NCBI GenBank assembly: GCA_025602905.1
Contig: JAHLKI010000017.1
Coordinates: forward strand, 1-64,000
Length of the DNA: 64,000 bases
Direction: 5' to 3'
DNA from: Phlyctochytrium arcticum
Lineage: Eukaryota > Chytridiomycota > Chytridiomycetes > Chytridiales > Chytridiaceae
The stretch's first letter is position 1. Each line of letters starts with the position of its first letter. Positions 5,020-63,080 of this stretch are shown here, piece after piece. The translations under genes and the position numbers were made by a program. Below the pieces are notes generated by a model. The model was not told where the DNA came from and did not search any database. It worked only from the letters and a program-made list of their open reading frames with translations.

Positions 5020-5470
5020 TTTAGGGCAGTTTTTTTTACTCCATGTATCGAGTGAGAGACTTTTTTATTATATTTTTCCCTCCACTTTACATGTAGTAGG
5101 GCAGTTAGGGCAGTTTTTTCGAGGTAAAGTCCCTGGGGATATAGTTTTTAGAGCGATTAGTAGTTCACACGTTCTGTGAACTTCTCCTCACTCATAAAAA
5201 TTCTAATAGAAAAATAAACTTATAAAAAAACTGCCCTAACTGCCCTGTTTTTTTTTACTCCATAGAAACACACCACTACTTTATTAATAAATTTTTATTT
5301 TTCTTCATGTATCGAGTCAGGGCAGTTTTTTAAAACACCTGCCCTAAAACGGCCCTAAAAACAAAAAACTGCCCTAACTCCATCAATCCCCGATTCAATC
5401 ACTTCTTCCATTCTATCCCTACAAAGTATCGAGCCGAATTTGTTCGCTTCTCCGATACTACCGCTCGTAA
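5020..5470. repeat. Modular noncoding cassette B1 (word AGGGCAGT)
   Basis: Conserved scaffold shared with the other cassettes: CATGTATCGAGTGAGAGAC, then CCCTCCACTTTACATGTAG, GAGGTAAAGTCCCTGGGG, the small palindrome GTTCACACGTTCTGTGAAC, CTCACTCATAAAAATTCTA, and CTATCCCTACAAAGTATCGAG. The word AGGGCAGT occurs singly at about 5023, as a direct pair at 5098-5119, as an inverted pair at 5225-5246 (a perfect 22-base inverted repeat, loop about 105 bases), then forward at about 5319 and inverted at about 5338-5378. No protein-coding frame is supported. Confidence 0.85.
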
Positions 5471-5499
5471 TTCTTTGTAAAATGTGTTTCGCTCACAAA

Positions 5500-6000
5500 G
5501 AAAAGGGGTGCAGTTTTGGGGTGCAGTTTTTTCCCCTCCATGTATCAAGTGAGAGACACTTTTTATTATATATTCCCCTCCACTTTATATGTAGGGGTGC
5601 AAGGGGTGCAGTTTTTTTTGAGGTAAAGTCCCTGGGGAGGTAGGGGGGGAGGGACTAGTTAGTAGTTCACACGTTCTGTGAACTTCTTCTCACTCATAAA
5701 AATTCTAATAGAAAAATAAACATTCAAAAAAACTGCACCACTTGCACCCTCTTTTTTTACCTCCATAGAAACACTACACAACTTTATTAATCAATTTTTA
5801 TTTTCCTACATGTATCAAGTAGGGTGCAGTTTTTTAAAACACCTGCACCCTACCTGCACCCACTTGCACCCCTTTTTTTTACTAACCTCCAATTATTCAC
5901 TTTTATACTATCCCTTCATCACCAACCCCACAAATTGTCGCACACCTCTAATTATCTTCTCCGGTACTACCGCTCGTAATTCTTTGTAAAATGTGTTTCG
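5500..6000. repeat. Modular noncoding cassette B2 (word GGGGTGCA)
   Basis: Same scaffold as B1, but every word position now carries GGGGTGCA or its complement: forward at 5505 and 5519, forward pair 5595-5618, inverted pair 5726-5749 (24-base arms, one mismatch), forward near 5822 and inverted copies at about 5843-5876. It is nearly identical to cassette C2 in element C. It ends with CTCGTAATTCTTTGTAAAATGTGTTTCGC, a motif also found just before the cassette (5464-5492). Confidence 0.85.
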
Positions 6001-6043
6001 CGTTGTTTCGTTGAGATAAAGAAAAATAGATTAATATCTAATA

Positions 6044-6436
6044 ATGGATCTCCTTGGCAATTTACCTCTCGATATCGGGTTAATGATTTTAGATTATTTG
6101 GATACAGACGACTATCTCACAGTTGCAAAAGTGTATAATATTAATCCGATACGTGGAGTTTGCAGGAGGTTAAAAAATGAGAAATGGGCAACGATTTCTC
6201 ATCCGGTTAAAGGTAATAAAGGGGATTCAGCAACGATAAAATTAAGTTATGCAGATAAGGAGTCCGCTTTTCGTATAAAGTATCGTGGCAGACATGAATA
6301 TCCATTTTACAGATGGATGAGGGATACGGAGTGGATGAAGGGGGTTTATAAAACAATGTTTATTAAATGGAGGTATGACGGACGATTAAAAGATTATCAG
6401 CCTGTTAAATGGGGTCTTGTAAACCGTACCTCCTGA
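6044..6436 (+). CDS. F-box-like protein
   Basis: A 130-residue protein with an N-terminal F-box-like motif at about residues 6-45: LPLDIGLMILDYLDTDDYL, followed by a helix with hydrophobic spacing and a Cys-Arg-Arg turn. F-box motifs bind Skp1 and recruit SCF ubiquitin ligases. The remaining 85 residues are basic and aromatic (KYRGRHEYPFYRWMRD) and would be the target-binding part, but match nothing I recognise. It is the first gene after the left cassettes and is followed within 45 bases by the receiver-domain gene. Inference: an element-encoded adaptor that redirects host protein degradation. Confidence 0.65.
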   Translation: MDLLGNLPLDIGLMILDYLDTDDYLTVAKVYNINPIRGVCRRLKNEKWATISHPVKGNKGDSATIKLSYADKESAFRIKYRGRHEYPFYRWMRDTEWMKGVYKTMFIKWRYDGRLKDYQPVKWGLVNRTS

Positions 6437-6477
6437 ATCGCAAATATCGTTTCTTTTGTTGCAATATATTATAGTTA

Positions 6478-6903
6478 ATGCGGTTTGTTATCATAGTAGA
6501 CGATAACCACCTCGGGGCGCGTATCGTTAAAAGAATGATTACAAACATCTACAAACAACTGTCGATTGTGATATGTCTTAACACCGATACAGCAATGGAT
6601 CTTATTTATGCAAACTTTGAAGATATTGAGACGATTTTCACAGATCTAAATTTCATAAACCAACACGAAAAAAGTGACGCTCCTGATGGACTCAAATTGA
6701 TTCAATTTATTCGCAAATTTGAAACGGATATAAACGAAACTCCGATAAAAATCATCGCTTTTTCTTCTAGTCCTCATCTCGGAAACGCAGCGATAGACGC
6801 TGGTGCGACTCTATTTTTTGCGAAACCTTTGTCGATGGATAATGTCAAAAGTATTTTCGCATTTGTAGACGGGCGATTACAAGAACAGGAGACTTTTCTC
6901 TAA
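6478..6903 (+). CDS. Stand-alone response-regulator receiver domain
   Basis: A 141-residue CheY-like protein. Seen: the acidic pair in IIVDDNHLGARI (residues 5-16), the phospho-acceptor aspartate position in IFTDLNF (about residues 58-64), a GLKLIQFIRK helix, the serine-rich IIAFSSS strand (Thr/Ser switch position) and the conserved lysine in FFAKPLS (about residue 119). All catalytic positions of a receiver domain are therefore present. No histidine kinase, HPt or output domain is attached. Fungi use Sln1-Ypd1-Ssk1/Skn7-type phosphorelays, so a free receiver could drain or divert phosphate from a host HPt protein. That role is inference; the fold call is strong. Confidence 0.85.
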   Translation: MRFVIIVDDNHLGARIVKRMITNIYKQLSIVICLNTDTAMDLIYANFEDIETIFTDLNFINQHEKSDAPDGLKLIQFIRKFETDINETPIKIIAFSSSPHLGNAAIDAGATLFFAKPLSMDNVKSIFAFVDGRLQEQETFL

Positions 6904-61343: not shown

Positions 61344-61512
61344 TACGTGACTTTCAATTCTTTATAACATTCTCTGTTATCGATAGAACGAAATCTCGCA
61401 AAACTTGCATTCTCATCAGGATCATCAGGATTATCGATATTACCCCCCGACTTTCCCATGCTCTCTGGGTCTCAATATTTGAATGTCCCGATTCAGCGAG
61501 CAAACTACATTT

Positions 61513-61753
61513 CCTAACACTTCTAGCCTATTTTCAGCCGATTTTTTGCCTCTCTCATTCTCATTTTCATTTCACTTTTATAAAAAACTTTTTTCATTTC
61601 TCTTTCTAAAAATATCTCTCAAATACCGGCTAGAATGGCTAGGATTTATTCTCTTCATTTTTTTACTACATAATAAAAGAAAAAAATCTATTCATTTCTC
61701 CATGTTTCGAGCCGTCAAATCCTAGACCGAAAAGGCTATGTCTAGTCTATGAT
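61513..61753 (+). repeat. 240-base family repeat, copy R4 (element C)
   Basis: Same landmarks as R1 (CTTCTAGCC, CTCTCATTCTCATTTTCATTT, ATACCGGCTAGAATGGC, GGCTATGTCTAGTCTATGAT) and same orientation relative to the element end as R3 in B. Confidence 0.85.
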
Positions 61754-61779
61754 TCCCCCCTTTTTTTTCCTAACACTTC

Positions 61780-62265
61780 TCCCCTTAATTGGTGACAGAC
61801 TTGGTGACAGCCTCTTTTTACTCCATGTCTCGAGTGAGAGACACTTTTTATTATATATTTCCCTCCACTTTACATGTAGGTGACAGAGGTGACAGATTTT
61901 TTGAGGTAAAGTCCCTGGGGATATAGTTTTTATACTAGTTAGTAGTTCACACGTTCTGAACTACTTCTCACTCATAAAATATTCTATAAGAATTATAAAT
62001 ATTCAAAAAGTCTGTCACCTCTGTCACCTTTTTTTTCCCTACATAGAAACACTACACTACTTTATTAATCAATTTTTATTTTCCTACATGTATCGAGTGG
62101 TGACAGGTAAAAAAAAAGTCTGTCACCAAGTCTGTCACCACCTGTCACCCCTCTTCATCAATCCCCAAATCACTCATTTTTCAATTATATCCCTACAAAG
62201 TATCGAGCCGTCTTTGTTCGCTTCTCCGATACTACCGCTCGCAGTTCTTTGTAAAATGTGATTCG
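61780..62265. repeat. Modular noncoding cassette C1 (word GGTGACAGA)
   Basis: Same scaffold as B1 and B2, but the word is GGTGACAGA: copies at 61791 and 61803, direct pair 61879-61903, inverted pair about 62003-62028 (about 26-base arms, few mismatches), forward at about 62099 and inverted copies to 62151. It ends with the CTACAAAGTATCGAGCCG motif and GCTTCTCCGATACTACCGCTCG. Confidence 0.85.
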
Positions 62266-62700
62266 CTCACAAAGAAAAGGGGTGCAGTTTTGGGGTGCAG
62301 TTTTTTTCCCCTCCATGTATCAAGTGAGAGACACTTTTTATTATATATTCCCCTCCACTTTATATGTAGGGGTGCAAGGGGTGCAGTTTTTTTGAGGTAA
62401 AGTCCCTGGGGAGGTAGGGGGGGAGGGACTAGTTAGTAGTTCACACGTTCTGTGAACTTCTTCTCACTCATAAAAATTCTATAAGAAAAATAAACATTCA
62501 AAAAAACTGCACCACTTGCACCCTCTTTTTTTACCTCCATAGAAACACTACACTACTTTACTAATAAATTTCTATTTTCCTACATGTATCGAGTAGGGTG
62601 CAGTTTTTTAAAACACCTGCACCCTACCTGCACCCCTTTTTTTTACTAACCTCCAATTATTCACTTTTATACTATCCCTTCATCACCAACCCCAGCAACT
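62266..62700. repeat. Modular noncoding cassette C2 (word GGGGTGCA)
   Basis: Almost the same sequence as cassette B2 of element B, with all word positions carrying GGGGTGCA: pair 62280-62300, pair about 62370-62393, inverted pair about 62500-62523, and later copies to 62637. Confidence 0.85.
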
Positions 62701-63080
62701 TCTCACTAATTGAAATGTTTGATTCATGCCCTTTTTGACTACTTTCCTTTTCTGGGCTCTGGGTCGGCTTTTTTCGACATTATTTCTGTTTTTTTCTCTT
62801 TCTTGTTCAATTTCTTCGTTCTTTTTTTCTTTTAAATTGTACGAATCTTTAAAAAACCAGAGACCCAGAGACCCAGTTTTTATCGAGTGCTTACTTATAC
62901 CGTTTCTATCCTGTCTCACTCTATTATTATCATGCACAAAATGTTTTCTACTACAAAATATAGAAAACATCGAGACACTCTTACACCCTTTTCTGGGAAA
63001 CCCATTTTACTGCCATTTCCTATCTCCACCCCTCTTCATCAAAACCCGAATCACTCACTTCTTCCAATTCTATCCCTACA
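62701..63080. repeat. Modular noncoding cassette C3 (word CTGGGTCT)
   Basis: A more divergent scaffold with word CTGGG(C/T)CT: direct pair at 62751-62765 and inverted run CCAGAGACCCAGAGACCCAG at 62857-62876. It shares GAAAACATCGAG and TTTCTGGG with the element A cassette. It ends with CTATCCCTACAAAGTATCGAG, which contains the helicase stop codon. Confidence 0.7.

Follow-up and report, generated by a model that had tools for sequence, protein, structure and literature searches.

Cassettes and their exchangeable words

The window analysed here, i.e., the first 64,000 nucleotides of contig C17 of the chytrid fungus Phlyctochytrium arcticum (Chytridiomycota; assembly of 31.5 Mb in 91 contigs, denoted below by C and a number), contains an integrated Polinton-like element (element A, 4304..28126) and the left end of another one (element B, 60588..64000). 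Both carry cassettes in which one short word recurs in direct and inverted orientation on a common scaffold. The four main cassettes reported in the initial annotation were all found, each on the plus strand: a class a cassette with the word AGGGCAG at 5021..5400 (8 exact copies starting in 5023-5369), a class b cassette with the word GGGTGCA at 5503..5900 (9 copies, 5506-5865), a class c cassette with the word GGTGACAGA, core GTGACAG, at 61790..62150 (10 copies, 61792-62142), and another cassette of class b, with the same word GGGTGCA, at 62277..62640 (8 copies, 62280-62629). Across the window as a whole, AGGGCAGTT and GGGGTGCAG are confined to cassettes (7/7 each), and 10 of the 11 occurrences of GGTGACAG lie inside them.

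In the usual cassette layout, slot A comprises one to many direct words with a period of 12-13 and slot B two direct words with a period of 9, followed by about 105 bp with a small hairpin; slot C comprises two inverted words with a period of 9, slot D one direct word, and slot E two or three inverted words. The complementary arms proposed in the initial annotation are present: they are 22-27 nt long, 96-100% complementary and 98-107 nt apart. The sequence between them is 68% AT, and its distal part 77% AT, as compared with about 60% AT in the elements overall; the GC content of the host is about 50%.

The P. arcticum genome contains at least 35 copies of the scaffold, some of them broken: 33, and two further ones at C42, which were read by eye only and are outside the alignment. 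The alignment of 29 distinct cassettes (the 33 copies minus the broken C2:3098, C7:651032 and C44:80080 and one duplicate) includes four cores, namely AGGGCAG, GGGTGCA, GTGACAG/C and GGGGGCA, in six word classes (a-f). The word swap is real, although the words as initially listed are not all separate in their cores, since GTGACAG is common to GGTGACAGA and to the words of two further classes. When the independent variation of the words was tested, 28 of the 29 cassettes had a single core only, in 6-11 exact copies each, which confirms that the copies within a cassette change together. The exception, C32:11316, has one foreign GTGACAC at its outer edge. At C5 the old word GTGACAC lies just beyond the aligned stretch, and the class a cassette C17:5121 has a decayed GGTTACAC at its edge.

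Because class membership is itself based on the words, their identities cannot by themselves serve as a test of the swap; the decoupling of the words from the scaffold can. With chosen, uncorrected identity thresholds and pairs, the mean word identity was 0.56 in the between-class pairs of scaffold identity above 0.85 (n=31) and 0.96 in the within-class pairs of scaffold identity below 0.82 (n=7). Between classes e and f, 115 of 120 central bases are identical, as against only 37 of 76 bases in the words. With the scaffold around the exchanged words largely preserved, replacement of whole cassettes fails to explain the words.

The adjacent helicase and its wing

A gene encoding a D5-like helicase of superfamily 3 (SF3) ends at the cassette in 12 of the 14 readable ends and about 0.8 kb away in the other two. 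In the window, the C-terminal part of such a helicase is encoded at 63079..63915 on the minus strand, with weak, below-cutoff Pfam matches to PPV_E1_C and DUF5906. The last 70 residues of the helicase model correspond, in fold only, to an RFX/P4-type origin-binding winged helix (phage P4 domain 1ka8; best Foldseek E 4.1e-3), while the whole model is matched, also at fold level only, by NrS-1, E1 and Rep.

Word class and the wing sequence of the neighbouring helicase go together. The wing reads PEKKTNGAR in class a (C5, C32), SEKRTKTAR in class c (one helicase end), SEKRTKTTR in class d (six ends), PEK[RQ]TN[AL]AR in class e (three ends), and PERKIRGAR in class f (C6, C45). Outside the wing, the helicases of a/d and e/f pairs are 95-99% identical. 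Comparison of C5 (class a) with C1L (class d) gives 18 differences in 458 body sites and 5 in the 9 wing sites; for C1L and C4L, both of class d, there are 41 differences in 456 body sites and none in the wing. Between e and f the differences amount to 10/214 to 11/229 in the body and 5/9 in the wing, while 1-2 of 9 wing sites differ within class e and one between c and d. These wing enrichments concern chosen pairs, are uncorrected, and use class labels that derive from the words. The partial correlation between word and wing, given body and scaffold, was 0.618 and was not reached in any of 10,000 permutations (N=13, C67 being omitted as the same as C43, with shared ancestry not fully removed). 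In 25 columns class a or class f is separated from the GTGACAG elements, the comparison for f covering the last 230-250 residues only, and just two of these columns separate both: R/Q to K and A/L/T to G (model residues 515 and 518). The G is also present in the class b tail PEKIIRGVR.

We consider the cassettes to be, probably, iteron-type replication origins of Polinton-like elements, bound through the winged helix of the helicase and co-evolving with its wing. The reader of the word is likely the element's own D5-like SF3 helicase. This primase-helicase would attach to the repeated words by its C-terminal winged helix of the RFX/P4 type, whose wing hairpin would read the word, and the helicase bound on both sides of the approximately 105 bp with the small hairpin and the AT-rich part would melt the DNA and load there. 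A change of the wing would then be followed by the replacement of the cassette words, with the scaffold and the helicase body kept. Among the roles suggested initially, those of an origin and of binding sites for proteins that change specificity gain support from the match of the words to the adjacent wing and from the position of the wing in the modelled RFX/P4-type winged helix.

Several observations weigh against this interpretation. Only two word switches with an attached helicase are available, which is a small number. Of the seven detached helicase tails inspected, which sit in tandem or chimeric arrays, two break the match between word and wing. The tail behind the class b cassette C67:33093 is c-like, and the one behind the class a cassette C17:5121 (remnant at 5399..5503, minus strand, wing SEKRTNSAR) reads KRTNSA, as does that behind the class e cassette C1:1550050. 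Word and wing are therefore separable. Matching or near-matching tails are those of class c at 61903 (remnant at 62173..62270, minus strand, wing SEKRTKTAR), class d at C4:1158003, and class e at C1:1550050; the tail of the class d cassette C4:1109601 reads KRTQTT, a near match, and the tail at 5620 (remnant at 5908..6012, minus strand) is the only one of class b. Moreover, the wing codons neighbour the words, so the association of word and wing is helped by linkage. Finally, in a generic 7-mer repeat test with a rough shuffling routine, 17, 74, 100, 32, and 37 of 100 shuffles scored as high as five other D5 loci, and 69 of 100 as high as the Prim-Pol/D5 gene of the window, which is not significant; for each of the two cassettes tested the count was 0 of 100. 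A rule that every D5 gene has iterons downstream was rejected, as the other D5 loci were not significant in this test. Nine copies of CTAGC occur in 500 bp of L049.

As a separate observation, the final helicase codons are included in the tandem cassettes (5399-5503 and 62173-62270), and the units join at a small inverted repeat, CTTTGT..ACAAAG, in this coding sequence.

Other explanations of the repeated words

The words may be supposed to be sites of the integrase, of a small protein encoded in the terminal inverted repeats (TIRs) or of a host regulator, in which case the cassette would act as a promoter or provide a group of subterminal sites for a transposase. The position of the cassettes agrees with this, as they lie inside the TIRs of elements, among them one with an rve integrase, and upstream of a TIR-borne small open reading frame (ORF) of the MERLEQ type, which is found between the terminal arrays and the cassette in 18 of 33 left flanks (60948..61361, minus strand, in element B). 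However, the type of this ORF is not tied to the word, one type occurring with d, e, and a and another with d, c, and b, while the helicase wing, unlike the ORF, follows the word. We find this explanation unlikely, and the MERLEQ-type ORF was rejected as the word reader because its types cross the word classes.

Neutral concerted evolution, in which the words would be made uniform by slippage and gene conversion and the helicase tail would follow through linkage, appears quite improbable, even though traces of such processes are visible. Slot A grows by slippage and in the C44 cassette (L040:4645-4992) has expanded to 29 tandem copies of GGTGACACTTTT; tandem cassettes bring helicase tails with them; and class a cassettes retain at their edge an old word resembling GGTGACAC. 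Against it, the preservation of the scaffold between the swapped words, as in e and f, shows that these were not exchanged in a single tract, words differ between classes on closely similar scaffolds and agree within classes on more divergent ones, and K and G turn up in both a and f at identical positions of the wing.

A structured RNA or a DNA cruciform, the arms of which would be kept complementary through pairing, was the other possibility raised in the initial annotation, and the covariation of the arms itself was confirmed in 28 non-identical cassette copies. Pairing in the word stem amounts to 99.3%, and 11 of its 16 pairs have changed on both sides; the covariation score of the whole structure (22 pairs) was 0.405, as compared with 0.134 in shuffles, none of 500 of which reached it, and with at most 0.116 when the structure was slid. 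One of the five covariation measures, the number of further pair types, was not above shuffles (16 vs. 17.1; 476/500). Nevertheless, one-sided changes are absent from all 16 word pairs, only one of which shows G-U; the slots of direct orientation, which are unable to pair with each other, change together as well, and the words are alike throughout the cassette and not merely between partners. One recognition word present in both orientations fits these features better than a stem does. No Rfam family matched at the gathering score. We find pairing an improbable cause of the covariation. The small central hairpin does seem to be kept: a stem of 7-10 bp, in three different sequences, is present in 27 of 29 copies (loop limited to 11), the two others lacking a central stem above 4 bp. 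Single central stems are not all beyond shuffles (up to 27/300 among the 27 kept).

Cassette-bearing elements, stacked ends and known systems

The elements that bear the cassettes are Polinton-like, which follows from the rve integrase, the A32 ATPase, the D5-type helicase, the TIRs and the 5-bp target site duplications. Element A is bounded by 102-bp terminal palindromes (4304-4405 and 28025-28126) that are 100% identical, has outer TIR parts of 87% identity (4299-4882 vs. 27597-28131), and is flanked by the duplication TACTA. Its genes recognised by Pfam include those for an A32-type packaging ATPase (15932-16642), an rve integrase with a chromodomain (19394-20755) and a Prim-Pol/D5 helicase of a second helicase family (23295..25814, minus strand; PF09250, PF08706). 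Element B, which begins with its terminal palindrome, is inserted in and interrupts a PolB gene (56880-60611) of another element. No capsid family was found among the Pfam matches of 18 window ORFs, and no structure search aimed at a capsid was made. Scans of viral contigs gave no relative, and phage records gave no match. A reading of the elements as Cafeteria endogenous mavirus-like elements was rejected in view of the host GC content of about 50%.

Six inverted cassette pairs 20-50 kb apart are present in the genome. In four of the five pairs compared, the cassette is the innermost part of TIRs of about 1.4-2 kb or more; the fifth, that of C1, matches piecewise only. The C1 pair has no target duplication, and the word classes differ between its two ends. 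Apart from that of element A, 5-bp duplications could be read from the flanks of C4b (CAGAA) and C3 (CATAG), and in C4 four of five bases match. At the nine element ends inspected, a perfect or near-perfect palindrome TGTGATAGTGCA..TGCACTATCACA, or its variant, comes first and is followed by CTATG-type arrays and then by the cassette. The palindromes of about 60-100 bp (4304-4405, 28025-28126, 1346-1427, and 60588-60647) vary in inner sequence between elements and may be copied hairpin telomeres. In the class f end pair of C6 (L016 / L018), an identical inverted flank of about 1 kb, with a coding frame, lies outside the terminal palindrome. The C44 and C42 cassettes (L031 / L047) both run into one GC-rich sequence, AAGGGCCCCGGGCTGCGCTGCGGGG, which is probably another mobile element. 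For twelve of the 33 cassettes, a contig end is no more than 15 kb away (C2, C15, C16, C17, C22, C32, C43, C67), perhaps because they are subtelomeric or as an effect of repeats on the assembly.

A second cassette family (h), with the word TTCTAGCC, is present in 15 places, near another D5 helicase family. In the window it is found at the 3' end of the Prim-Pol/D5 gene of element A (23060..23302, minus strand), twice at the right end of this element (26398..26633 and 27196..27450, both plus strand), and in element B (61514..61753, minus strand). The h cassettes of C4 at 876335, 895608, and 898956 are within the span of two terminal matches (875393-900142), and the second of them is near the D5 match C4:896411. 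The two stretches described initially as divergent relatives of the main cassettes share with them the right edge (about 66 bp, 88% identical, in 62701-63080; 54-63 bp in 186-790, which also has a few pieces of the 62.7-63.1 kb region), but mostly not the rest of the scaffold. The former includes a possible further cassette with the word CTGGG(TCTC), at 62750..63080 on the plus strand and at the 3' end of the D5-like helicase; in the generic 7-mer test its repetition at 62.6-63.1 kb was not significant (52/100 shuffles as high).

Element A thus carries cassettes a and b at its left end and h at its right end, and in element B the cassettes h, c, b, and possibly CTGGG are stacked within 1.6 kb. 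Single ends would accordingly offer sites to more than one type of helicase, which points to replication in trans by other elements. More tentatively, element ends might gather origins of differing specificity, so that one integrated virus element could be replicated in trans by the helicases of several other families in one nucleus, a poaching of origins among co-resident eukaryotic DNA viruses from which word swaps would be an escape.

Similar arrangements are known from other systems. The Rep helicases of Staphylococcus aureus pathogenicity islands (SaPIs) recognise, through their C-terminal domain, iterons located directly downstream of their own gene, as described in sections of PMC7581432. 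The self-loading helicases of the SaPI and staphylococcal cassette chromosome mec (SCCmec) Rep type resemble the case presented here in the cluster of repeated words directly downstream of a helicase gene with a C-terminal winged helix, which is predicted in our case. However, those are bacterial islands, while here the elements are eukaryotic and integrated, the site is inside TIRs, the words form inverted pairs around a hairpin, and several word classes share one scaffold. The likeness to the alpha protein of phage P4 concerns the fold of the origin-binding domain (1ka8), whereas the type of primase differs. We know of no iteron origin for the primase-helicases D5/E5 of poxviruses and C962R of African swine fever virus; in contrast to these, a candidate cognate site is visible here.

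In PMC12548392 and PMC10653810, geminivirus iterons are described as conserved in position and repeat pattern and diverse in sequence, their virus-specific sequence being matched by a variable stretch of Rep, the iteron-related domain. The likeness to our cassettes lies in the conserved repeat arrangement and in the specific sequence matched to a variable stretch of the initiator, and the initial statement that no described element combines a fixed frame with interchangeable iteron words was wrong. Geminiviruses have circular single-stranded DNA and an N-terminal recognition region in Rep, and no relation by descent is claimed. The principle is therefore already known, given the SaPI Rep helicases and the geminivirus iterons.

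For Polinton-like viruses, an integrated representative has been reported in Spizellomyces punctatus, a chytrid like the present host, in PMC7805220, which also notes TIRs and 5-7 bp target site duplications in some elements with rve or tyrosine recombinases; the terms iteron and replication origin are absent from this source. Our search of the available literature, which included term searches inside PMC11071308, PMC7805220, and PMC8547959 (the paper on Cafeteria endogenous mavirus-like elements, EMALEs), found no iteron origin for Polinton-like viruses, other D5-type eukaryotic viruses being outside its scope. What is new is a candidate origin for eukaryotic elements with D5 helicases, as well as the stacking of cassettes of different specificity at single element ends. 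Closely similar helicases with different wings beside different words in one genome constitute a natural experiment, and they hint at how elements that share a nucleus keep their replication apart, or steal it.

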